Origin: a virus
DNA: 26,874 bases
Strand: one strand, 5' to 3'
IMG/VR virus record: IMGVR_UViG_3300030491_000222
Coordinates: 1-26,874 of that record
The notes under the pieces are model-generated. The model was not told the origin of the DNA and ran no database searches. It was given only the letters and a program-made list of their open reading frames with translations. Position 1 is the stretch's first letter; each line of letters starts with the position of its first letter. Shown here piece after piece: positions 10,337 to 26,701 of this stretch. Made by a program: the position numbers and the translations under genes.

Positions 10337-13300
10337 GCCAACCGGCGAACGCCGCGGCGGTGACCCTGCGGGGTCGCGTCGAGGTCGTGTTCTACTCCAG
10401 CCCGAAGTTCTCGAGCGGACGGTTGCGGGTAGCTCCCGAGAAGACCGTGTCGTTCGCCGGGGCCTTGATGGTCCGCAAACACGACCCCGTGATCCTGCAC
10501 GGGGTCTGGGACATGCACCCGAAGTACGGGCGGCAGTTCAAAGTCAGCCACTTCGAATTCGATCAGCGGCTCGACGCCGAGGGCCTCGCGCACTACCTCG
10601 CGAACCACCCCACCCTCAAGGGCATCGGGCCGGCGAAGGCGCGGCGGATCGCTGATGCCTTCGGCGACGATTTTGACCGCGTCATCGACCAGGCGCCGGA
10701 CCGGATCGGCGAGGTCGCCAAGCTGTCTCGCGCAGCCGTGGAGACCCTGCGCGACGAGTGGACCCGGACGCGGACGCTGAACGCCAGCCTGACCTGGCTG
10801 GCGAGCTTCGAGCTCACCCATCACCAGATGGCGAAGCTGATCTCCAAGTTCGGCAACGCGATCGTCACGGTGCTCCAGAACGACCCGTACCTGCTGGTCC
10901 GGGAGATCCCGGGGTTCGGGTTCAAGCGCATCGACCAGGTCGCGCGGAAGATGGGGATGCCCAAGGACCATCGCTCGCGGGTCCGCGCCGGCCTTGCCCA
11001 CTGCGTGGCAGATCGGCTCGACCAGGGCGACTGCTGGGTCGACTACGCCGACCTCATCGAGCTCGCGAACGCGTTGCTCGTGATGGACGTCGGCGATAGC
11101 CGGGATCGCATCGACGCCGCGCTCGGCGAGCTCGTCGCCGATGGCACGCTCGCGTGCGAGTCGATCGGCGGCCACTTCCTCGTCGCGCAGCCACGCATGC
11201 TCCAGATGGAGCAGGACCTCGCGGCGGTGTTCACCACCAAGCTCGGTCCGAACCCGCACTTCGCCAGCGTCGCGGGTGACGCAGGCGCCGCCGCGACCGC
11301 CGCGCGGATCGATGCCGTGGATTCCCAGCTGAACGTCGGACAGCGCCGGGCGGTCGAGCTGGCGCTGGCGCACAACCTGGTGGTGGCGAGCGGCGGCGCC
11401 GGTGTCGGGAAGACCCGGTTCGTCGCCGCGTTGGCCAAGGTTTACGAAGCGGGCGGGCGCACGGTGGTCCTCGCGGCGCCCACCGGCAAGGCTGCCAAGC
11501 GGATCGAGCAGGTCGTCGGCCGCGCCGCGCTCACGATCCACCGGCTCCTCGGCTACAAGGGCAAGCAGTTCACGCGTGGCATCGACAACCCGGTCGAGGC
11601 CGACGTCGTCATCATCGACGAGGTCTCGATGGTCGACGTGCCGCTCGCCTGGCATCTGTTCCGGGCGATCGACTTCACCAAGACGTGCGTCGTGCTGGTC
11701 GGGGATCACAACCAGCTGCCGCCGGTCGGGCCCGGCAACGTCCTCCGGGATCTGATCGAGCGCCAGCCGGTGCCCACCGTGATCCTGGATCAGGTCGTGC
11801 GCCAGGCCGGCGTGCTCAAGGAGAACTCGATCGCCGTGCTTCGCGGCGCCGTGCGTCCCACCGCGGACAAGGAGGCCGATGGTCGGCGCCCGTGGGTCGT
11901 GCTCAACCAGCTGACCGAGGTCGCCGACGCGCAGCAGAGCGTCCTCGAGCTGTACGACACGGTGCTGGTGGAGAAACTCGGGTTCGATCTACTCGCCGAC
12001 GTCCAGCTCTTGACCCCGACCCGCAAAGGGCCGCTCGGGGTCGACGCGCTCAATGTCGAGTTGCAGCGGCGGGTTCAGCGCAAGCTCTGGGGCGTCGACG
12101 TGCCGCCCGCGCGGCCCGGTTGGCGACCCGAGTTCCTCGCCCACGATCGGGTGATCCAGACGCGGAATAACTATGACCTCGATGTGATGAACGGGTCGAT
12201 CGGCACGGTGATCGAGGTGGGGCCCAACCGCGGCGAGCTCAAGGTGCGGTTCGACGACGACGACGTCACGTACACGGCGGAGACGGCGCGCGAGTTGTCG
12301 CTCGCGTACGCCTTGACCGTCCACAAGTGCCTGCACCCGGACACGCTGGTCGAGACGCCCGAAGGGCTGTTTCCGATCCGCTCGATACGCCGCGACGCCG
12401 GCGTCGTGGCGACCCCAGAAGGCCCGCGCGGATACGACAGCTTCGTCGAGAACCCCAGCGGCGAGTTGCTCGAGCTCGTCACCCAGGATGGATATCGGCT
12501 CACCGTCACCCCCGAGCATGGCGTCGACGTCTGGACCGACGCGGGGCTCTCACGCGTCTGTGCGCGCGACATCTCCGCGGGCGACCTGTTGCGGTTGAAG
12601 CTCGGCGTGACGTGCGATCCGATCGAGGCGCCGCTCCTCGGTGAGCCGCCCGAGGCCCATGCCAGCGCGCGCCGCTATCGATACCCGCGCGTCGTGACCC
12701 TGGAGCTCGCGGAGTTCCTCGGCCTCATGGTGGCAGACGGGACCCTGTTCGAGCGCGGGATCTGCCTGGTCAAGCGGCACGCCGACGTCCGCGACCGGTT
12801 CGCGTCGCTGTGCGAGACGTTGTTCGGGGCCACGCCGCAGCGCTACGCGGTCGGGAAGTCGTACGCTGCCAAGGTCGGCAGCCGCGAAATCGCCGCGTGG
12901 CTGCGCCAGCTCGGCGGCATGGAGCCACGTGCCAAGGCCGTGCCCGACTGCATCCTGCGCTCGCCGGTGGCGCTCCACGTCGCGTTTCTGCGCGGCCTGT
13001 TCGAGAACGGGACGGTCCAGCTTCGCCCGGACGGTGTGCTCGACCGCATCGAGTGGAAGACGACGTACCCCGCGCTCGATCAGACCGTCCGAACGATGTT
13101 GCTCCGCCTGGGCATCATCACCGGCACGACGCCGAGCCGGCCCGGATCGGTCTACCTGTACGGCGCGAACGCGCGCCGGTTCCGCGAGCAGGTGGGCTTC
13201 GTCGCGGCGTTCAAGCAGGCGCGGGCCGCGGGCCCGGTGGGCGTCGAGACGCGGTACGCCCTGCCGCTCACGGATGAAGAGGCGCGGCGCATGTGCGCGG

Positions 13301-13887
13301 CGCTGGTGCCGATCGGCGCGCTCACGCCGGCGATGGCGGGGAGTATCGGCCTCCAGGGGAAGATCAGCCGCCACGTGGCCGGGATCGCGCTGTCCCGAGT
13401 CGCAGCGACGCGGGCAGTCGCCGATGCCGCGGGCGCCACGCCCGAGACGCGCGTGACGTGCGAGACGCCCGAGACGCCCGAGACGCCCGAGACGCCCGAG
13501 ACGCCCGAGACGCCCGAGGAGAGCCTGTTGCGCAAGCGCCTGGGGTTCCACTACAGCGCTGTGCGCGAGGTGCGGCGGCTTGCCGGTCCGTCGATGTGCA
13601 TCCGGGTCCCCGACGGGAGCCGGTTCCTGCAGAACGGGTTCAGCGCCTGGAACAGCCAAGGCTCCGAGTTCCCGTGCGTGATCTTGGTCGTCCACAAGGC
13701 GCACGCGTTCATGCATCACCGCAACCTGTTCTACACGGGCGTGACGCGGGCGCGGAAGGTGGCGATCGTCGTCGGTGACCACTGGGGAATCACCAACTGC
13801 GCCCAGAAGCAGCAGGTCGAGCGCCGCCGGACGTTCTTGTCGCTGCTGGACTTGACCCGCCAGGTCAGGAGTCGAGGGGACGCATGA
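10333..13887 (+). CDS. RecD2-like SF1B DNA helicase, intein-containing
   Basis: A 1184-residue precursor; removing the 442-residue intein leaves about 742, the normal RecD2 size. The N-terminal beta domain precedes two helix-hairpin-helix segments (LKGIGPAKARRIADAFGDDF and IPGFGFKRIDQVARKMGM). Helicase motifs in order: Walker A GGAGVGKTRF at about 355, Walker B VVIIDEVSMVD at about 427, motif III LVGDHNQLPPVG at about 455, and the UvrD_C_2 elements DRVIQTRNNYDLDVMNGSIG at about 606, YALTVHK / SQGSEFPCVI split by the intein, and YTGVTRARKVAIVVGD. Predicted 5'-3' DNA helicase in the replication operon. ATGA overlaps join it to the nuclease upstream and the primase downstream. Confidence 0.93.
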   Translation: MSQPANAAAVTLRGRVEVVFYSSPKFSSGRLRVAPEKTVSFAGALMVRKHDPVILHGVWDMHPKYGRQFKVSHFEFDQRLDAEGLAHYLANHPTLKGIGPAKARRIADAFGDDFDRVIDQAPDRIGEVAKLSRAAVETLRDEWTRTRTLNASLTWLASFELTHHQMAKLISKFGNAIVTVLQNDPYLLVREIPGFGFKRIDQVARKMGMPKDHRSRVRAGLAHCVADRLDQGDCWVDYADLIELANALLVMDVGDSRDRIDAALGELVADGTLACESIGGHFLVAQPRMLQMEQDLAAVFTTKLGPNPHFASVAGDAGAAATAARIDAVDSQLNVGQRRAVELALAHNLVVASGGAGVGKTRFVAALAKVYEAGGRTVVLAAPTGKAAKRIEQVVGRAALTIHRLLGYKGKQFTRGIDNPVEADVVIIDEVSMVDVPLAWHLFRAIDFTKTCVVLVGDHNQLPPVGPGNVLRDLIERQPVPTVILDQVVRQAGVLKENSIAVLRGAVRPTADKEADGRRPWVVLNQLTEVADAQQSVLELYDTVLVEKLGFDLLADVQLLTPTRKGPLGVDALNVELQRRVQRKLWGVDVPPARPGWRPEFLAHDRVIQTRNNYDLDVMNGSIGTVIEVGPNRGELKVRFDDDDVTYTAETARELSLAYALTVHKCLHPDTLVETPEGLFPIRSIRRDAGVVATPEGPRGYDSFVENPSGELLELVTQDGYRLTVTPEHGVDVWTDAGLSRVCARDISAGDLLRLKLGVTCDPIEAPLLGEPPEAHASARRYRYPRVVTLELAEFLGLMVADGTLFERGICLVKRHADVRDRFASLCETLFGATPQRYAVGKSYAAKVGSREIAAWLRQLGGMEPRAKAVPDCILRSPVALHVAFLRGLFENGTVQLRPDGVLDRIEWKTTYPALDQTVRTMLLRLGIITGTTPSRPGSVYLYGANARRFREQVGFVAAFKQARAAGPVGVETRYALPLTDEEARRMCAALVPIGALTPAMAGSIGLQGKISRHVAGIALSRVAATRAVADAAGATPETRVTCETPETPETPETPETPETPEESLLRKRLGFHYSAVREVRRLAGPSMCIRVPDGSRFLQNGFSAWNSQGSEFPCVILVVHKAHAFMHHRNLFYTGVTRARKVAIVVGDHWGITNCAQKQQVERRRTFLSLLDLTRQVRSRGDA
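12328..13653 (+). other. Intein in RecD2 helicase with degenerate LAGLIDADG endonuclease
   Basis: In-frame insertion of 442 residues between host K665 and S1108, splitting the helicase motif VHK/SQGSEF. It starts with Cys (CLHPDTLVETPEG, block A), has block B TPEHGVD, a LAGLIDADG-type domain with LAEFLGLMVADGTL and FLRGLFENGTVQL, and block F/G MCIRVPDGSRFLQNGFSAWN ending in Asn with Ser as +1. The second LAGLIDADG motif has lost one residue and has Asn where the catalytic Asp is expected, so cleavage is probably impaired. The penultimate residue is Trp rather than His. Composition matches the host gene, pointing to long residence. A six-unit ETP repeat lies before the C-terminal splicing part. 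Confidence 0.93.
13462..13515 (+). repeat. 9-bp tandem repeat (GAGACGCCC) x6 inside the intein
   Basis: Six perfect GAGACGCCC units encode (Glu-Thr-Pro)6, a flexible linker between the endonuclease region and the C-terminal splicing block. The perfect identity suggests recent slippage expansion. Confidence 0.95.
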
Positions 13888-18094: not shown

Positions 18095-18391
18095 CGGCAC
18101 CTTCGGCACCTCGAAAACGGTGGGTTTTCAAAGGTGCCGTAAGAATTAGCTCAGTAAAACTCGATATCTATGAGGGTCTACGGCACCTACGGCACCTTCT
18201 CCTGCCCTCTCTAAAGAGCCAACGTGACTATCACTCACATTATGAATATGACGTGTAGTCATAATGTGAGTGTTATGCCCTGACGCTATAGGAGGGGGAC
18301 AGCCAGACGTGCCGTAGGTGCCGAGGTGCCTAAGATATTTGTAATCTAAGGGGAAACTGTTACGGCACCTTGTGGGCACCCTACGGCACCT
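18095..18391. repeat. CGGCACCT iteron-like array, both orientations
   Basis: Exact CGGCACCT starts at 18095, 18104, 18181, 18190, 18363 and 18384 on the plus strand, and its complement AGGTGCCG starts at 18132 and 18316, with degenerate copies at 18324 and 18374. Two pairs are spaced exactly 9 bp. Extended copies read TACGGCACCTT. The density (eight exact copies in about 300 bases) is far above chance and typical of initiator-binding iterons. Confidence 0.75.
18232..18272. repeat. Perfect 14-bp inverted repeat
   Basis: CACTCACATTATGA (18232-18245) and TCATAATGTGAGTG (18259-18272) are exact complements with a 13-base spacer. Each arm contains half of the GTGA-N7-TCAC operator family. It can form a cruciform or bind two dimers face to face. 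Confidence 0.9.
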
Positions 18392-18821
18392 TGCCCAACG
18401 TGGCTTCGCCTGCGGCCGATAACTAATTGTAATCTCGTAGGGGGTCCCCGTCGACCGCCTCGCGCAGCGCGAATGTGAATATTAATCACTATGTGAATAG
18501 CGGTTGGATCTGCCGGCCCGGTAGCGCGGGGCGGACGTGGCCACGGCGCTGATCGCGACGCCGAGCTCGCCCAGCGCGGGCGATGGATCAGCGGCGACCT
18601 CGGTCGTCGCGCTCCTGACCTTGAACGGCACCGCGCTGCGCGTATTCGAAGCTGCACGTTGCTCGACCGGTCGACGGCCGACCGGGCGCACGCGGCGCTG
18701 ACGTTCGCGAAGGCGGCAACGGCGGTGACGCCTTGGGTACCCGGCAGGCACCCGCAGGCACTTCGGATCGTCGCCGTGTCGCAGCAGTCGATCTCGCCGG
18801 CCCCGGGGCTGGCGGCGCTGC

Positions 18822-18990
18822 GTACTGATAGCAATGATGGCCGGCGCTGCGTACTGATAGCAATGAACACCGCGCGCGGCGCTGCGTACTGATAGCAATG
18901 AACACCCCGTGCGGACTGCGTACTGATAGCAATGATGAACGGGGCTGTGTACTGATAGCAATGAACGGCGCTGTGTACTGATAGCAATGA
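18822..18990 (+). repeat. Six-copy GTACTGATAGCAATGA array upstream of terS
   Basis: Six exact 16-base copies start at 18822, 18851, 18886, 18920, 18949 and 18975, at 26-35 bp spacing, each usually preceded by GGCGCTGC or GGCTGT. The array ends 46 bases before the small terminase ATG. Location suggests a terminase-recognition (pac/cos-like) site or an activator array; the gaps between copies are too short for CRISPR spacers. Confidence 0.9.
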
Positions 18991-19036
18991 TCATCATTAG
19001 TGCTGTTCAGGGCTAGACAAAGATATCGGTATCCCT

Positions 19037-19861
19037 ATGCTGGAGTCTGTGAGCGATGCAGTTCCACCCGGCACGCCGCCGGTCGCCGACGGTGCGAAGC
19101 CCAAGCGCCCGAAGGGGCGACCGAAGCGCGAAGACGCGCCGATCATCGACTGGCACGCGGTCGACGCGGCGCTGGTCTTCGGTGAGCGTCTGGTCGATCC
19201 GGAGACCGGCGTCGAGACGCTCCGCTTTCCATCGCTGGCGATCCTCGCAAGGCGCTACGGCGTCAGTGCGAATCGCATGTGGATGTACGCGAACCGGGCA
19301 CGATGCTTCGAACGCCGCAAGGAGGCCCAGCTCAAGGCACAGGCTCGGTTCGAGTCGAAGATGATCGAGAAGCAGTCCAGCTCTCGCGCGGATGCCACCG
19401 CGAACGTCGTCGAAGTTGTGGACGCTTACATCGTCGGTTTCAAACAGGCGCTCGCCGAAGGCAAGGTCCGCTTTGACTCGCCTTCAGACCTCGATCGCCT
19501 CGTCCGTTTGAAGGAGCTGCTGTCTGGCAACGCGGACTCGCGTGGCGATTCGCAGCTCACGATCTCCCTCGAAGAGATCCAGCAGCGCCATCGCCAGGTC
19601 CGCAGCCAACTCGACAATATGACGCCCGAGCTCGCGGGCACCGCGTCCGCACACCAGGACGCGGCGACTCCTCGCGTTGCCACGGCTCCCGCGACCGGTG
19701 CTGGCAGTGCTGGCAGCGCGCCCGGCGGCGACAATCTCGACGCCCGTGGCTCTCTCGACGCCCGTGGCTCGGCTGGCGCCGGCATCGCGGCCCGTGCCAG
19801 CGGCGCGGCTGGCGGCGACGGACTCGACGATGAGGGGGATGGCGATGTCAGCAACCCCTGA
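19037..19861 (+). CDS. terS: Phage terminase small subunit
   Basis: A 274-residue protein. After a basic linker ([13 protein letters not shown]) comes a helix-turn-helix at about residues 55-80 ([20 protein letters not shown]), the DNA-recognition fold of small terminase subunits. Helical segments follow ([20 protein letters not shown], then [19 protein letters not shown] and [15 protein letters not shown]), consistent with the oligomerisation region. The last 70 residues are an Ala/Gly-rich disordered tail with two LDARGS units. No clear ribosome-binding site is seen. It lies 46 bases after a six-copy repeat array and upstream of the large terminase, though separated from it by a reversed recombinase gene. 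It would recognise the packaging site and load DNA onto TerL. Confidence 0.75.
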
Positions 19862-19875
19862 GCGAGTTGGAGATG

Positions 19876-19897
19876 GCCAGGTCTTCACAAACCTGGC
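19876..19897. other. Hairpin just after terS
   Basis: GCCAGGT-N8-ACCTGGC is a perfect 7-bp stem starting 14 bases after the terS stop, followed by another partial copy (GCCAGGCC). There is no T-tract, so termination is uncertain. Confidence 0.35.
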
Positions 19898-20611
19898 AAT
19901 GCCAGGCCCGGATCTGCCCCCCAAGACTACGGAGTTCCAAGGGGTTAGATCGGCCGCTCCCTGGGTCGGACATGGCCAGGTTGCGGGATCCGCAGTGCCC
20001 AGCAGCTCGGCTTGCGGCCCCGGCAGCACGGCGCGGCTCCACACCGCCGCCGCTTGTTCAGCGGCCGTTGTCCCGCCACTCGGCCTCGGTCCCGCGCCCG
20101 ATTCGCCCCTGGGCGTGCTCGCAGGCGGGGCCGCGGTCTACCTGCCCGGACCCATCATCGACGCGCCGTGCGCGAACGTGGCGCGAACCGTGGCCGATCC
20201 GAAGCGACCGGCACCGCACGTGGACGCCGCGCGCGCGACCCGACTGCGCACGTCAGCAAAGGGTGTGCCACCCCCGGCCCCCGTTTCCCCGTTTTCGAAC
20301 GACGCCCCGGGCGTGCCTACTGGCGCCTTCCATGGAGCTGGAAATCGGGAAATAGACGATCTCGCAAGTGCCGAGAATCGCGTGTTCCGAAATCCGGAAA
20401 TGCCCATTTGGGGAAATGGGTCGCCGGAAAAAATGGATGGGCTCGTTTTGTCCGTGAACACGGCCGGGGATCCAGAGTCAGTAGCTTCCACATATGGGCA
20501 GTCCATTACTGCCAATCAGTTGTCAGGCCAGCCACTGCAAGGCTCGGCCCGGCAAGGTGCGCCATGGCAAGGCTCGGCTCGGCCCGGCCCGGCACGCCAA
20601 GGCACGGGGAC
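19898..20611. other. Gap without a supported gene; low-GC island with GGAAAT repeats
   Basis: The frame that leads into the large terminase is open through this stretch but has no ribosome-binding site or family-like sequence, and later it is antisense to the recombinase, so it is not a TerL N-terminus. From about 20280 to 20530 GC falls; GGAAAT-type words recur (20338-20440) and CCCATTT-GGGG-AAATGGG forms a perfect 7-bp hairpin at 20403-20420. After that comes a GGCTCGGCCCGGCAAGG-type GC-rich microrepeat (20540-20605). Confidence 0.5.
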
Positions 20612-20647
20612 GGGTGGGCTCGATGGCGCAAGCGGTCGAGCCCACCC
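20612..20647 (-). terminator. 12-bp stem hairpin behind the tyrosine recombinase
   Basis: GGGTGGGCTCGA-N12-TCGAGCCCACCC is a perfect 12-bp inverted repeat, starting eight bases beyond the stop codon of the minus-strand recombinase. Position and stem strength fit a terminator, but no T-run follows on the minus strand, so a recombination- or protein-binding role is also possible. Confidence 0.5.
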
Positions 20648-20654
20648 TTCCAAC

Positions 20655-21272
20655 TCAGCAGAGCTGATCGCGGACCGCGTCCATGATGTCCTGGTCGCTG
20701 GGCGCGGCGTACCTCATGGTGGTCTCGACGCTTTTGTGCCGGGCGATGCGCTGGACGAGCAAGATGTCGCGCGTGCGTCGCTGAACGGCGGTCAGCGCGG
20801 AATGGCGCAGCGCGTGGAACGGGAACAGCTGGTCGAGCCCGGCGCGTTGCTGCCAGGTGCGGAACAGATGACGGATCGTGCGCAGGGCGATCCGCTGCCG
20901 GCGACTCGAGATGAACAGCGGAGCGTCGGGCGCAAGGCTCTGGTCGTGCGACCGCTTCCAGGCGATGAACTTCGTGAGCTTGTGCCAGACGCGGTCGGGC
21001 AGGAAGATCTCCTGGATCGCCGGCTCGTCGGTGGACCGCTTGAACACGCGCAGGGTGATGCGCCGTCGAACGCGGCCGTCCCGGTTCAGGACGTCTCCAA
21101 TGTCGAGCGCGGCGATCTCGTGCTGGCGCAGCGCGGTGCCGAGCGCGATCGACAGGATGACGTGGTCGCGAAACCCGGCGCGGTGCTCGCCGGTGACCTT
21201 GAGGACGCGGGCCTGCTCGAGCTCGGTGAGGGTGCGGGGCGGGCGGCGGATGCTGGAAGCGTACGCGGGCAT
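20655..21272 (-). CDS. Tyrosine recombinase, catalytic core only
   Basis: A 205-residue tyrosine recombinase. The catalytic set is complete: R49 ([13 protein letters not shown]), H153 and R156 ([13 protein letters not shown]), H179 ([10 protein letters not shown]) and the nucleophile Y188 ([12 protein letters not shown]). The start is firm: AAGGAGG six bases before ATG at 21272. The usual 90-100 residue N-terminal SAM-like DNA-binding domain is absent, leaving a size like FimB/FimE-type invertases rather than classic phage integrases. It lies antisense between the two terminase genes and has its own hairpin after the stop. It could integrate the phage, resolve dimers or invert a segment; the sequence does not decide. 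Confidence 0.88.
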
Positions 21273-21326
21273 GAACAACCTCCTTCCAACACTCACGCTC
21301 TTCCTGGGAACGAAGGCAAGCCGGGA

Positions 21327-22790
21327 TTGCCAGGTTCGTCGACGGCGCAGGGTCCCTTGCTCGTCGGCAAACGCAACGAGCAAGATCTGCTCGATTGGCT
21401 CGGAACTGAGGCGGGTTTCTTGAGCGCCCTTGGGCGCTACAATGAGGAGCCGCTGGTGTTCGAGAAGTACCAGCTGGCTTTTCTCGAATCCAAGTCCCGA
21501 TATCGCTGGGTCGAGAAGGCCCGACAGGTGGGGTATTCGTTTCTGTTTGCCTGCGAGGCCGTCGCGCGCTGCCACCTGCGCGAGGCGCATACCGCAGTGA
21601 TGGTCTCGTACAACCTCGAGGATGCCAAAGAAAAAGTGAATTACGCTCATCAGCTCGCCGAGGAGCTTCCCCTGGCTTATCGGAAAAAGTTGGTGATCGA
21701 CTCCCGCACGGAACTGGGCTTCCTCTCCAATGGTGCGTCGAAGCGGGTCTCGCGCATTATCTCGAATCCCTCGAAGGCGCCACGCGGTAAGAAGGGCGAG
21801 GTCTACCTCGACGAGCTCGCGCACTACGCGAACGACCGCGAGGTCTACAAGGGATCGACCGCGCTCATCCTGCGCTCGCGCGGCCAGCTGACCGGCTGCT
21901 CGTCGCCGCTCGGTCGGCGCGGCGTGTTTTGGCAGATCGCAAGGGAAGAACTCCGGAAGTATCGCGCCTACTGGCGGCAGCAGGTCCCGTGGTGGCTGTG
22001 CAGCTTCCTCTGCATCGACGTGGCGCGCGCGGCGAAAGACGCGCCGCTCATGACGACCGAGGAGCGCGTCCGGACGTTCGGAACGAAGGACATCAACGAC
22101 CAGTTCGACGCCTTGGCTCTGGACGATTTCCAGCAGGAGTTTGAGAACGCCTACTGCGATGAATCCTATTCGTTTTACAGCTATGAATTGATCCTCCCGT
22201 GCACGACGGACGACCTCGTGATGGCCGACGACTTCGCCACGTTCGGCGACGTCTCAGGCCGCCTGGTCGCCGGGTTCGACGTCGGTCGCAAGCGCGACCT
22301 GTCGGAGCTGTCAATCTTCGAGCAGACGGGCGGCAAGCACGTGTGCCGGATGCTGAAGAGCTACGACAAGGTCCCGTTCGCCGACCAGGAGGCCGACCTC
22401 CGCCGCATGCTGACGACGCTGCCGATCGGCCGGCTGTCGATCGACCAGAACGGCATCGGCATGCACCTGGCCGAGAACCTCGGCCGCGACTTCGGCTGCG
22501 TGGTGCCGGAGACGTTCACGAACGAGTCGAAGGAGATCTGGGCGACGGACTTCAAGATCCTCCTGCAGCGCAAGGACGTCGTCTTGCCCAAGGATCGCGA
22601 GCTCGTGGCGCAGATCCACGGCGTGAAGCGCGGGCTGACGCCGACGGGGAAGCCGTCGTTCGAGGTCGAGCGCGACGCGGGTGGCCGCGGGCATGGGGAT
22701 CGCTACTGGTCGGTGGCCCTGGCCTGTCAGAAGGAACGCGGCCCGCTGCCAGGCGCCGTGACCGAAATCAACGTTCGAATCATTGGATAA
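21327..22790 (+). CDS. terL: Phage terminase large subunit
   Basis: Packaging ATPase/nuclease of about 487 residues. Motifs: adenine/Walker-A-like region FEKYQLAFL then [14 protein letters not shown], Walker [12 protein letters not shown], motif [14 protein letters not shown]; nuclease acidic residues in [30 protein letters not shown] and [12 protein letters not shown]. This is a complete two-domain TerL. The start is uncertain: there is no ATG. TTG 21327 or TTG 21357 keep the family-like N-terminus ([20 protein letters not shown]); GTG 21456 has the best ribosome-binding site (GAGGAG, six bases) but would trim it. It is divergent from the recombinase gene, with about 55 bases between. Drives DNA into the prohead through the portal encoded downstream. 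Confidence 0.92.
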
Positions 22791-22801
22791 GGGCTATCAA
22801 G

Positions 22802-22993
22802 ATGAGTATAGTGAAAGACCGAGATGACGAGTCACAGCGGCCGATCGCCACGCCGCATCCGATGGGCCGGCTGCTCCGGTTCCTGGAGCGGCAATCAGCG
22901 AGCGGCTTCTTCGGCAAAGTGACCGTGAGCTTCCAGCACGGCAAGGTCTGCAACATTCAGGTGAAGCAGAGCAAGAAGCTCGACGAGCTATAG
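22802..22993 (+). CDS. DUF2292/YezD-like small protein
   Basis: A 63-residue protein whose C-terminal 40 residues (LLRFLERQSASGFFGKVTVS, then FQHGKVCNIQVKQSKKL) match the DUF2292 pattern G-x-V-x-I-x-x-Q-x-G-K-V-x-x-I-x-x-x-x-K. Family function is unknown; members are found in Firmicutes and in phages. Eleven bases after the terL stop, AGGG nine bases before the ATG, and an intrinsic terminator behind it, so it is the last gene of the terminase transcript. Confidence 0.7.
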   Translation: MSIVKDRDDESQRPIATPHPMGRLLRFLERQSASGFFGKVTVSFQHGKVCNIQVKQSKKLDEL

Positions 22994-23050
22994 ACCCAAC
23001 CGACCCACCGACCCAACCACCACGCGAACGACGGGCTGTCGAATCACTCG

Positions 23051-23099
23051 AGCCCCGGAAGGCAAGTTCCCTGCTTGCTCTCCGGGGCTTTTTCCTTTT
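23051..23099 (+). terminator. Strong intrinsic terminator
   Basis: AGCCCCGGA (23051-23059) pairs with TCCGGGGCT (23081-23089), with a second inner pairing of GCAAG and CTTGC, and is followed by TTTTTCCTTTT. This is a classical Rho-independent terminator and the clearest one in the window. It separates the terminase genes from the portal module. Confidence 0.92.
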
Positions 23100-23109
23100 C
23101 GGGGCGCAC

Positions 23110-23373
23110 GTGAACTATCGAGTCCACATCTTCCAGACCGACTTGCACACCCAGCCAGCGAATCGCCTGCGGTCGGTGGGCGCCTTCCAGGTCACCGCCG
23201 ACACCGAAGCGGCCGCTCGAGCGGCGGCGAACGTGCGGCTCCTGACCTTCGGCCGGGTCGTGCGCGCGCTGTCGCCGATGGCTGGCGGCGATCTCGCGGC
23301 GGTTGTGGATCCGCCCCCGCTGCTGCCTGCTCCGAGCTCATCCGCGGCCGCGCGCGCGCCGGGAGGCCGGTGA
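23110..23373 (+). CDS. Unrecognised 87-residue protein
   Basis: Begins with GTG at 23110 after a weak GGGG. The first 55 residues look folded (NYRVHIFQTDLHTQPANRLR, GAFQVTADTEAAARAAANVR), and the rest is a Pro/Ala/Ser-rich tail. Its TGA overlaps the next ATG (TGATG). Short phage proteins in this place between terminase and portal are often minor structural or assembly proteins; the family is not recognised. Confidence 0.6.
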   Translation: MNYRVHIFQTDLHTQPANRLRSVGAFQVTADTEAAARAAANVRLLTFGRVVRALSPMAGGDLAAVVDPPPLLPAPSSSAAARAPGGR

Positions 23374-23669
23374 TGGCTCGGCCCGAGCAGATGCCGCTCG
23401 AGGTGCCGGCGGCCGCCGGCGTGGGGTCCCCCGCGAATGTGTTTCGGCTGCGCGACAAGACCGTCCAGGTCTCGGGGCCGTTCGTCGGCTCGCTCCAGCT
23501 GGAGGGCAGCATCGACGGTGAGAACTTCGAGGCCATCGGCGCGCCGCTGACCGCGCCCGGCTTCGTCCTCCTCCCGCTGACCGTCGAGTTCGTGCGCGTG
23601 CGGACGAACCAGCTCACCTCCGGCGCGCCGCGGGCGATCGCCGCCGGCTTCGACTTCCGAGCGCTGTGA
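23373..23669 (+). CDS. Small phage structural-like beta-sandwich protein
   Basis: A 98-residue protein; GGAGG seven bases before ATG 23373. The segment KTVQVSGPFVGSLQLEGSID, then GENFEAIGAPL, PLTVEFVRVRTNQL and AAGFDF follows the alternating pattern of a short beta-sandwich seen in many phage capsid-decoration or structural proteins (S-G-x-F-x-G-x-L-x-L-E-G-S-x-D-G). It overlaps the portal start by one base (TGATG), so it is coupled to the portal. Family assignment is by pattern only. Confidence 0.65.
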   Translation: MARPEQMPLEVPAAAGVGSPANVFRLRDKTVQVSGPFVGSLQLEGSIDGENFEAIGAPLTAPGFVLLPLTVEFVRVRTNQLTSGAPRAIAAGFDFRAL

Positions 23670-26600
23670 TGACCGACGAGACCGGCCACACCGCCGATAC
23701 GTCCCCCTCGGGTTCGACCCTCGACGTCGACGAGGCCGTGCGCATGCTGGGCGACCGGATCGCCCTCATCAAGGCGCACGTCCTGGGCGGCGACGCGGGC
23801 CGCGTCGCCGACTCGAACGCGATGCCCTGGGCGGACGCCGAGCAGCGCGAGCAGGTGTTCGCCGGCATGGGCGTGGTCACGCCGCCGTACGACCCCGAGA
23901 CGCTGGCCATCCTGTTCGAGAACTCGTCGTCGCTCCGCCAGAACGTCGACGCCTACGTCACCAACATCGACGCGTTCGGCCACCGCTTCGAGCCGGTCAT
24001 TGACCTCGACGCGAGCGATGCGGACCACCGGATCGCCAACGCGCTGTTCGTGGAGCGCCAGCGCAAGAAGTCCGCCCCCCGGTTCCGCGATGACCCGAAG
24101 GTCCAGGCGCTCGCGAACACGCCGACACCCGACGAGGTCGCGGCGAAAAAGGCCGAGGTCACCGAGCACATGCGGCTCGAGAAGTCCCGGCTCGAGACCT
24201 TCTTCGAGTTCGCGTGCATCGACCTGTCGTTCGTAACGCTGCGGCGGCGCACGCGGCAGGACCTCGAGATGATGGGCAACGGCTACTGGGAGGTCTTGCG
24301 CGACGGCGGCGGCGAGCTCGCGCAGTTCGTGTACCTGCCCGGCTTCACGATGCGGCTCCTGCCGCTCGACGCCGAGCTCGTCGAGGACGACCTGAACATC
24401 AAGGTCTCCGAGCTGTCGTTCGACACGATGAAGGTGCGGAGGCGGTTCCGGCGCTACGTCCAGGTGTTCGAGCAGCAGGTCGTGTTCTTCAAGGAGTTCG
24501 GCGACCCGCGGTGCATCTCGCGCAAGTCGGGGCGGGCGTACGCGTCGATCGACGAGCTCGTCGCTGCCGACCCCGACGACGGGCCGGCGACGGAGGTCCT
24601 CCACTTCAAGATCCACAACGCGCGGTCGGCGTACGGCATCCCGCGGTGGATTGGCAACCTGCTCGCGGTGCTCGGCTCGCGGCAGGCTGAGGAGGTGAAC
24701 TACCTGTACTTCGAAAACAAAAGTGTACCACCACTTGCATTGCTCGTCTCTGGTGGTCGGCTATCTGCCCAGTCGATCCCGCGCATCGAGAGCTACATCG
24801 AGAACAACATCAAGGGGAAGCGGAACTTTCATCGCGTGCTCGTGATCGAAGCCGAGTCGTCGAGCGGCGGCAGTAATCACGAGCACACCGGGCGGATGCG
24901 GATTGAGCTGAAGCCGCTCACCAACGCGCAGCAGTCGGATGCAACGCACCTTGCCTACGACGAGCGTAACCACGACAAGGTCGGTCAGTCGTTTCGACTG
25001 CCACGCTTACTCCGCGGAGACATTCGAGATTTTAATCGGTCGTGTTACTCGGCAGACACCGAGACGCTGACCGAGAACGGCTGGAAACTTCATCAGGAGA
25101 TCGCAGAGGACGAGCGTATCGCGGTGTACGATCCCGAGCGCGACGAGCTCCGGTTCGAAGTTCCGGTGAGCAAGCACGTGTCGTTCGTTCGCGAGGACCT
25201 GATTCGTTTCGTTGGCAAGCATACGGACGTGCTCGTCACACGTGATCACAAGATGCTTGTCCGATGCCCGGATCGGTCCTGGACGATAGAGCCCGCCGAA
25301 GAGACCGCCCGTCGACGCGTGTTCGAGTTCATCTGCGTGCCGGGGACCGATGCTGCCGGAGAGGAGCTGATCGACCTCACCCTTCCCAAGGTCTGCAAGA
25401 TCGAACGCGGGCACCGGCATGAGCCGATCCGAGGCGATCTCTGGATCGAGTTCCTCGGCTACTTCATGTCCGACGGAGGGCTGCTCGAGACCGACCACCC
25501 GACAGCGCCCTACCTCGTGTTCGTTCGCCAGAAGAAGCGGCCGTACCGGACTCGTATGCAGACCTGCCTCGAGCTCATTGGCTGGAAGTTCTCCACCCAG
25601 ATCAAAGAGGACGGCACGCACGTGTTCTGCATCTCGAACCGCTGCCTGCGCGATTGGCTCGTGACCCACTGTGGTGGGCGGAGCGCGGGACGGCATCTGC
25701 CGTGGTCCTACGTCACCGGGCTTCCGGTTCGCCAGCTCCGGATTTTGTTTCGCGCGATGATGGACGGTGACGGAACACGCACCGCGAACCTGCGAGGTGG
25801 CAGCTACTACACCGCGTCCTCCGTACTGGCCGGTCAAGTGCAAGCCATGTGTTTGCGGCTCGGGTACCGCGCTCATTACCGGTGGGTAGCGCAAACCGGT
25901 GTATTTCGAGTTCAGCACGTCGAGCGTTGGAGCACGATCATGACGAGCGCTCGACACGTTGAGGTCGTTCCGTACGAGGGCGAGGTCTACTGCTACTTCT
26001 GCCCCGGCGCCGGGTTCTTTGTCACCCGCCGCAACGGCAAGGTTGCCATCCAGGGCAACACCGGCGACGCGGCGCTCATGTTCGCCGAGATGCAAGTGTT
26101 TCAGCCCGAGCGCGAGGAATTCGATTTTGTCATCAACCGCAAGATTCTCGCCGACATGGGCATTCGGTTCTGGCGATTTCGATCGAACTCCCCCGTCACG
26201 CGCGACCCGGCCGCGATGGCGGAGATCGTCCGCAGCCTCACCAACGCAAACATCCTCACGCCCGAGGAAGGCCGGCTACTCGCGAGCGACGTGTTCAATC
26301 GCGAGTTCAAGAAGATCTCCGCCGCGTGGGTCAAGCAGCCCGTCGCGCTGACCTTGGCCGGCATCGCCGCCGCGCCCGAGCCCGAGAGCACGCTGGCCGG
26401 GCCCGACGTCCAGAAGGGCGACACGACGACGGGCGACCTGGCCGCTGCGGGCGGCATCCGCGCACCCGCCCAGGGCCAGGGCCCAGGCGGACGTCGGCGC
26501 CGCGGCACGCCGGACCTCGTCGACGAGGCGGCACGACTGATCGCGATCCGCAACGCGTTGCGCGACGCCGAGGGCCGCGAGGCCCAGCGCGCATTCGAGA

Positions 26601-26701
26601 GCGACAAGCGCGCCGAGCTCGAGCTCGAGCGCGAGGTCATCAAGGTGCCAGCCGACGAGCTGGCCAGCTGGTTCGAACCCGAAAGCACACCGTCCCCATG
26701 A
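23669..26701 (+). CDS. Phage portal protein (PBSX-type), intein-containing
   Basis: A 1010-residue precursor; without its 339-residue intein it is about 671 residues. Portal features: early LAILFENSSSLRQNVDAYVTNIDAFGHRFE, the wing/stem part FACIDLSFVTLRRRTRQDLEMMGNGYWEVLRDGGG, VLHFKIHNARSAYGIPRWIGNLLAVLGSRQAEEVNYLYFEN, and SFRLPRLLRGDIRDFNRS, the PBSX-family signature just where the intein is inserted, continuing TGDAALMFAEMQVFQPEREEFDFVINRK. The C-terminal 100 residues are a Gly/Ala-rich then charged tail. The portal forms the dodecameric channel at the capsid vertex that docks TerL. Coupled to the genes on both sides by overlaps. From about 24713 to the intein the codons become A/T-richer than the first kilobase. 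Confidence 0.92.
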   Translation: MTDETGHTADTSPSGSTLDVDEAVRMLGDRIALIKAHVLGGDAGRVADSNAMPWADAEQREQVFAGMGVVTPPYDPETLAILFENSSSLRQNVDAYVTNIDAFGHRFEPVIDLDASDADHRIANALFVERQRKKSAPRFRDDPKVQALANTPTPDEVAAKKAEVTEHMRLEKSRLETFFEFACIDLSFVTLRRRTRQDLEMMGNGYWEVLRDGGGELAQFVYLPGFTMRLLPLDAELVEDDLNIKVSELSFDTMKVRRRFRRYVQVFEQQVVFFKEFGDPRCISRKSGRAYASIDELVAADPDDGPATEVLHFKIHNARSAYGIPRWIGNLLAVLGSRQAEEVNYLYFENKSVPPLALLVSGGRLSAQSIPRIESYIENNIKGKRNFHRVLVIEAESSSGGSNHEHTGRMRIELKPLTNAQQSDATHLAYDERNHDKVGQSFRLPRLLRGDIRDFNRSCYSADTETLTENGWKLHQEIAEDERIAVYDPERDELRFEVPVSKHVSFVREDLIRFVGKHTDVLVTRDHKMLVRCPDRSWTIEPAEETARRRVFEFICVPGTDAAGEELIDLTLPKVCKIERGHRHEPIRGDLWIEFLGYFMSDGGLLETDHPTAPYLVFVRQKKRPYRTRMQTCLELIGWKFSTQIKEDGTHVFCISNRCLRDWLVTHCGGRSAGRHLPWSYVTGLPVRQLRILFRAMMDGDGTRTANLRGGSYYTASSVLAGQVQAMCLRLGYRAHYRWVAQTGVFRVQHVERWSTIMTSARHVEVVPYEGEVYCYFCPGAGFFVTRRNGKVAIQGNTGDAALMFAEMQVFQPEREEFDFVINRKILADMGIRFWRFRSNSPVTRDPAAMAEIVRSLTNANILTPEEGRLLASDVFNREFKKISAAWVKQPVALTLAGIAAAPEPESTLAGPDVQKGDTTTGDLAAAGGIRAPAQGQGPGGRRRRGTPDLVDEAARLIAIRNALRDAEGREAQRAFESDKRAELELEREVIKVPADELASWFEPESTPSP
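25043..26059 (+). other. Intein in the portal protein with intact-looking LAGLIDADG endonuclease
   Basis: In-frame 339-residue insertion between host S458 and T798. It begins CYSADTETLTENGW (block A, Cys nucleophile), has block B TRDHKML, two LAGLIDADG-like motifs (FLGYFMSDGG and LFRAMMDGDG) each ending in the catalytic-position Asp, block F YCYFCPGAGFFVTRRNGKVA, and ends IQGN with Thr as +1. The penultimate residue is Gly instead of His. Its GC and G/C-ending codon share are visibly lower than the host, in contrast to the helicase intein, pointing to more recent arrival and a possibly active homing endonuclease. Confidence 0.95.

Follow-up and report, generated by a model that had tools for sequence, protein, structure and literature searches.

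The window, that is, the whole stretch of DNA analysed, is a genome fragment of 26,874 bases forming an IMG/VR virus record. An open reading frame for a PBSX-type portal protein precursor, the portal being the ring by which DNA passes into the head of the virus, occupies positions 23669–26701 on the + strand, with ATG 23669 or GTG 23666 as its start and the stop at 26701; it codes for 1010 aa with the putative intein and for 671 aa after predicted splicing. The frame was matched by Phage_portal PF04860 (55.4 bits, cut-off 39.1, E = 7e-15). TIGR01540 (portal_PBSX) covered model positions 2–300 in the unspliced frame (147.9 bits) and 2–315 of 320 after in silico splicing (163.7 bits, slightly below the cut-off of 166.05). 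The phrog_12 portal match (E = 1e-32) became one continuous stretch, 172–530, once the flanks were spliced in silico. The N-extein (23669–25042, +), with the terminal residues ...GDIRDFNRS, and the C-extein (26060–26701, +), which starts TGDAALMFAEMQVFQPER, both aligned with intein-free portals. Between them lies the putative intein (25043–26059, +), 1017 nt or 339 codons in frame, running from Cys1 to Asn339, so that ...GDIRDFNRS is followed by CYSADTETLTENGW and, at the other border, TRRNGKVAIQGN is followed by TGDAALMF.... The earlier note had placed the insertion inside the PBSX portal signature DFNRS / TGDAA, and this observation was confirmed.

All the parts that the same note had listed for a 339-residue in-frame insert, namely blocks A, B, F and G and two LAGLIDADG motifs that keep Asp, were present, all on the + strand. 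Block A (25043–25084, CYSADTETLTENGW) supplies the Cys1 nucleophile and block B (25226–25264, DVLVTRDHKMLVR) the TxxH motif with T66 and H69. In block F (25973–26035, YEGEVYCYFCPGAGFFVTRRN) Cys317 takes the place of the usual Asp. Block G (26036–26062) reads GKVAIQGN then T, with Asn339, a +1 Thr and a penultimate Gly. The putative LAGLIDADG homing endonuclease domain (25418–25954, residues 126–304, limits approximate), delineated from PF14528, profile, fold and dN/dS, contains motif 1 (25451–25477, FLGYFMSDG, residues 137–145, catalytic acid D144) and motif 2 (25748–25774, FRAMMDGDG, residues 236–244, catalytic acid D243).

An IMG/VR scan with the N-extein alignment gave 78 loci, the majority without the insert. 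In six intein-free portals whose N-exteins are 80–87% identical to that of the window (L107, L108, L109, L111, L114 and L122), DFNRS is joined directly to T[GS]D[AS]ALxFAEMQVFQPER. The S/T junction proposed earlier thus corresponds to a seamless DFNRS-to-T joint in these relatives, and the 339 residues are missing from homologous portals. An independent contig from a different metagenome (L002) carries the identical intein (100% aa) in a slightly different portal, and a third (L003) carries one 81% identical to the window's, the portals being 83% identical. Because L002 and L003 carry the insert independently, an assembly error is excluded.

The residues expected for splicing are all in place in the window copy (C1, T66xxH69, N339, +1 Thr), and they are conserved among the portal inteins compared: C1, H69 and N339 in 66/66 and T66 in 64/66, with the +1 residue T in 56 and S in 10. 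Two positions depart from the common pattern. The penultimate residue is Gly338 instead of the common His (G in 63/66), and block F has Cys317 in place of the common Asp (C in 65/66); the pair is non-canonical yet near-universal in this portal intein family. A class 3 intein was ruled out by inspection, since Cys1 is present and the Trp and Thr of the WCT triad are absent (M71, not Trp, in block B; no Thr before the block G Asn). Neither Pfam Intein_splicing PF14890 nor NCBIfam TIGR01445 matched the portal intein; within the window, general intein models scored a RecD2-like intein alone, below the cut-off. A profile of 51 relatives matched PI-PkoII (9e-18) and the VMA intein (2e-14), as well as the Hint domains of AceL NrdHF and PI-MtuI and the LAGLIDADG enzymes I-Tsp061I and I-DmoI. 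The AlphaFold2 model of the intein was confident over nearly its full length (mean pLDDT 94.7, pTM 0.93), and a Foldseek search of the PDB with it returned the TliVMA intein at the top (E = 3e-17, TM 0.70), followed by PhoVMA, PI-PfuI, PI-SceI and PI-PkoII, so that its closest structures in the PDB are endonuclease inteins of full length. As modelled, the insert is a Hint domain, with the Hint fold recovered, plus a two-motif LAGLIDADG endonuclease. Of the model support that the earlier note had looked for, LAGLIDADG_3, the 51-relative profile and the fold came out in favour and Pfam Intein_splicing stayed silent; Hint/LAGLIDADG inteins were matched both by profile and by fold.

LAGLIDADG_3 PF14528 scored the insert at 26.9 bits (cut-off 22.5), and the two motifs with their acids come with a predicted fold like those of I-DmoI and I-Tsp061I, in which the alpha-beta-beta unit occurs twice. 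The claim of an intact endonuclease held at the residue level, D144 and D243 both being kept. Among the 66 portal inteins, an acid (D/E) is retained in motif 1 in 62, in motif 2 in all 66, and in both in 62. For the endonuclease domain, dN was 0.143 and dS 0.98 between the window and L003, and 0.020 and 0.114, respectively, between L086 and L087. The domain is under purifying selection (dN/dS 0.15–0.18), similar to the splicing domain. Pairs from other lineages gave dN/dS of 0.05–0.15 where dS was measurable and not tiny. The first catalytic acid was lost in L220, L221, L226 and L233. The window holds a second intein (12328–13653, 442 aa) in a RecD2-like helicase, at HK^C...N^SQGSEF (^ marks an intein border), with the second LAGLIDADG acid changed to Asn (FLRGLFENG) and an ETPETPETP repeat; from these two features its endonuclease looks decayed. 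Decay of the endonuclease therefore occurs, an acid having been lost in those four relatives and in the RecD2-like intein.

The intein-free homologue L111 was modelled as an HK97/GTA-type portal, its best fold matches being the HK97 and GTA portals; a sequence search of the PDB for a portal relative returned none, and the fold search did match. In the secondary structure of the L111 model, the junction (residues 439/440) falls at the N-end of helix 438–472, preceded by a loop. By analogy with solved portals, we take the loop and the long helix to be the tunnel loop and its helix. The insertion site would then lie where the tunnel loop gives way to the long helix, at the helix's N-end. Inteins generally prefer conserved sites (PMC2814812), and this site is conserved without being topmost in the portal family, ranking about 37th among 644 stretches of six residues.

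Relatives were collected by IMG/VR scans with an intein profile (A1; 237 matched, best 80 fetched) and a portal-site profile (A4; 329 matched, best 80 fetched). A GTDB scan gave 16 matches, among them contigs from Myxococcales and Polyangiaceae bins (54–71% identical), which hints at a myxobacterial host. At least 126 distinct inteins, from the best 80 of each IMG/VR scan plus GTDB, were sorted by their flanks. At least 50 of the 126 share the insertion point of the window intein (site b, NR[A/S]^T/S). Site a holds at least 12, mostly a few residues upstream (GD^TSNRATA, GD[PS]S^TGNLATA), with L180 further upstream, and site c at least 4 just downstream (ATA^SME or NRAVAF^T). Portals with inteins at the same position as the window's have identities down to 8–15%, and the host portals span phrog_12, 2662, 9232 and 10963, with L024 in 104. 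One contig (L215, IMGVR 3300020193_000026, from 3001) carries two portal inteins that are 34% identical, at GD^C..N^TSNRA^C..N^TAD, with the five extein residues TSNRA between them. Judged from these flanks, the window's portal motif is an intein insertion hotspot.

Near-site inteins were seen at several distinct positions (L019, L029, L030, L035, L206, L217, L240, L246, L247 and L259; L038, L040 and L235; L034; L180). In L013 and L024 the portal gene contains additional inteins ahead of the one at site b; the endonuclease is of the HNH type in one of them and of the LAGLIDADG type in another. In the contig L004 (1–2931), which belongs to a phage with a site-b intein, a terminase ORF is also interrupted, apparently by two inteins. 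The inteins of three archaeal contigs (L089, L091 and L092) cluster with some site-b portal inteins (support 87); the host protein is MCM, by Pfam for L089 and by similar flanks for L091 and L092, and by sequence a link between archaeal MCM inteins and phage portal inteins is possible. Four queries against 50,697 phage records gave no site-b portal intein among the listed matches that were inspected. The cultured Bacteroides phage BF766P4 (L261:2471–3889) has an unannotated intein at SDH^C...GN^CKGFAADI; the phage was discounted as a carrier of a portal intein at site b, the protein that hosts the intein looking instead peptidase-like (M15-type) by sequence.

The distribution of the inteins was compared with that of their hosts. 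On a tree of the 126 inteins, site labels need 8 changes versus a shuffled mean of 52; therefore, inteins that share a site are for the most part related to one another. Site b does not form a strict single clade (5 changes, of which supported branches force at least 2). Among 75 portals placed on a tree, 14 of them intein bearers, intein presence needs 13 changes versus a shuffled mean of 13.0, supported branches forcing at least 10; presence across the portal tree looks random. L164 and L163 are natural plus/minus alleles: the site is occupied by an intein of exactly 1062 bp in one and empty in the other, with 98.6% identity over 2371 bp upstream and 92.6% downstream. Inteins were more alike than the surrounding portals in 1000/1035 pairs, to which rate differences contribute. 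The inteins of L011 and L016 are 55% identical and their portals 15%; those of L032 and L042 have 16 differences in 1053 bp (98.5% nt) and lie in portal flanks that are ~92% and 88% identical, with a step near the insertion borders. In the window, GC3 is 0.78 for the intein versus 0.90 and 0.87 for the exteins. Because the distribution, the allele pairs, the divergence contrasts and GC3 point the same way together, homing is the best explanation for the family at this site. The earlier statement that the element, if active, would spread among related phages thus gains comparative support from patchy presence, plus/minus alleles and inteins less diverged than their portals. Close to the window, intein and portal divergence are similar (81% versus 83% against L003), so the last events in the window's sub-clade may have been vertical.

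The low GC3 (0.4) of the last N-extein codons was rejected as a co-conversion scar beside the window intein and is not evidence of homing, because the intein-free L107, L108 and L114 share it. An exact 23-nt search for an empty, intact portal allele nearly identical to that of the window phage found L002 alone, which itself bears the intein; no such empty allele came up. L106 (position 5367; IMGVR 3300031726_000850) is 99.9% identical to window 19669–25035 and then continues in a major-capsid-like frame 7 bp before the site. It was discarded as a clean empty allele on account of this jump to the capsid gene, which is a deletion or a chimeric assembly, possibly caused by mixed alleles.

From sequence and models, we hold with high confidence that the portal gene harbours a full-length bifunctional intein that is both self-splicing and a homing endonuclease. 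The portal precursor would be translated with the insert included, and the Hint domain (Cys1, TxxH, Asn339, +1 Thr; class 1-like chemistry) would excise itself and ligate ...DFNRS to TGDAA..., which leaves an ordinary portal of 671 residues. In a cell infected by two phages at once, the LAGLIDADG endonuclease would cut portal genes that lack the intein, at the codons for the conserved NR[A/S]^T, and repair from the intein-bearing copy would insert the element. We infer splicing, DNA cleavage and homing for the window copy, and the window intein is very probably mobile. For the family, the same data make it probable that a portal-specific homing intein lineage occupies one codon boundary (NR[A/S]^T) across phage families, homing between portals with identities down to 8–15%, with derivatives at adjacent positions (GD^TSNRA^TA^) that are even paired in L215. 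If so, the motif would have been attracting mobile inteins among tailed phages over a long time.

Four other readings were weighed. That the insert is a metagenome assembly chimera must be asked of any virus fragment taken from IMG/VR, such as the window; the recurrence of the same junctions in L002, from another metagenome, and in L003, L086 and L087 leaves this next to no probability. We give equally little credence to the 339 residues being an extra domain that stays unspliced in the mature portal: intein-free homologues run seamlessly across the junction, the splice-site residues are invariant across 66 relatives, the insert has the fold of an intein, and its insertion point is at the N-terminal end of a portal helix that is long and conserved.

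The other two readings concern what the element does now. The intein may splice while the endonuclease of the window copy is dead, leaving a vertically inherited passenger late in the homing cycle and awaiting loss. Activity is not readable from sequence alone, and decay was seen in the four relatives and in the RecD2-like intein; we nevertheless consider this unlikely, given that D144 and D243 are both present and that purifying selection acts on the endonuclease domain in both the window/L003 and the L086/L087 pair. Intein-less portals are moreover plentiful nearby, and unoccupied targets for a homing element therefore exist. Alternatively, the intein could be retained as a regulator whose conditional splicing delays portal assembly or senses conditions. 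Some other inteins are known to splice conditionally, and because head assembly starts from the portal ring, the timing of the ring could matter; splicing as a control has been proposed for the Mic1 terminase (PMC7156551). However, presence is scattered randomly on the portal tree, many close relatives do without the intein, and the endonuclease is conserved as expected for a selfish element. Retention for regulation appears quite improbable to us, although it and a selfish element are not mutually exclusive.

Portal inteins had been called less familiar in the earlier note, which is right but needs context: they are published in mycobacteriophage C1 and annotated in Lahirium, at other positions. 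Six portal (PORT) inteins have been published in mycobacteriophage cluster C1 (PMC5050341). Like the window's, they lie in portal genes and are endonuclease-type inserts; unlike the window's, those of Gizmo and BeanWater, themselves different, are at two other positions (HW^C...N^CRLF and KFS^C...HN^TLNL), and the window intein was rejected as a C1 PORT allele because these insertion sites differ. In Gordonia phage Lahirium, the portal is annotated 'contains intein'; that intein has a GN C-terminus and 24% similarity to the site-b relative L011, but is upstream of the window's motif, at VEYLE^C...GN^SQMRG. The HyRo gp3 intein, from a mycobacteriophage C1 nucleotidyltransferase, is homologous over residues 1–339 (26%, E = 3e-17) with equal size and architecture, and differs in host protein and site (GWD^C...N^TKTGY). 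TliVMA, PhoVMA, PI-PfuI, PI-PkoII and PI-SceI, the best structural matches at ~10–15% identity, share the Hint plus LAGLIDADG architecture and reside in cellular proteins. The haloarchaeal MCM inteins a–d occupy several close sites in one conserved protein with patchy single or double occupancy (PMC10643990); there the host is a cellular helicase, whereas here it is a phage portal motif, with sites mere residues apart. Cyanophage CL131 offers a close functional precedent for phage inteins built in this way: its dCTP deaminase intein self-excises in E. coli (PMC6293099). In the open-access literature searched, neither the NR^T portal site nor the range of portals that carry an intein there was found described; the portal-site intein family is apparently undescribed and broadly spread.

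The added interest lies in the family, in which one conserved portal motif is a repeated landing place for homing inteins in tailed phages that differ widely. Tailed phages cannot do without the portal, and the targeted motif is common to very different portals. An intein homing to it can cross between phages that otherwise share little. The plus/minus allele pairs are natural material for studies of phage homing, and the 66 inteins at known, close-set sites bear on how an endonuclease target shifts by a few residues. The insertion also explains the annotation trouble at such genes, the portal match being split and the intein being missed by Pfam's intein model.

Other features were noted in passing. 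A glycosyltransferase-like gene is downstream of the intein-bearing portal in L002, L003 and L004, quite different phages, from a look at the sequence only. Shortly upstream of the terminase, a tyrosine integrase (20655–21824, –) is encoded in antisense orientation, and a separate large serine recombinase (435–2039, –) is at the left end, so that two integrase types are found on one fragment. At about 18350–19000, a repeated peptide pattern (SVRSAAP / ISTQRR) appears in six-frame translations, which suggests a minisatellite-like DNA repeat.
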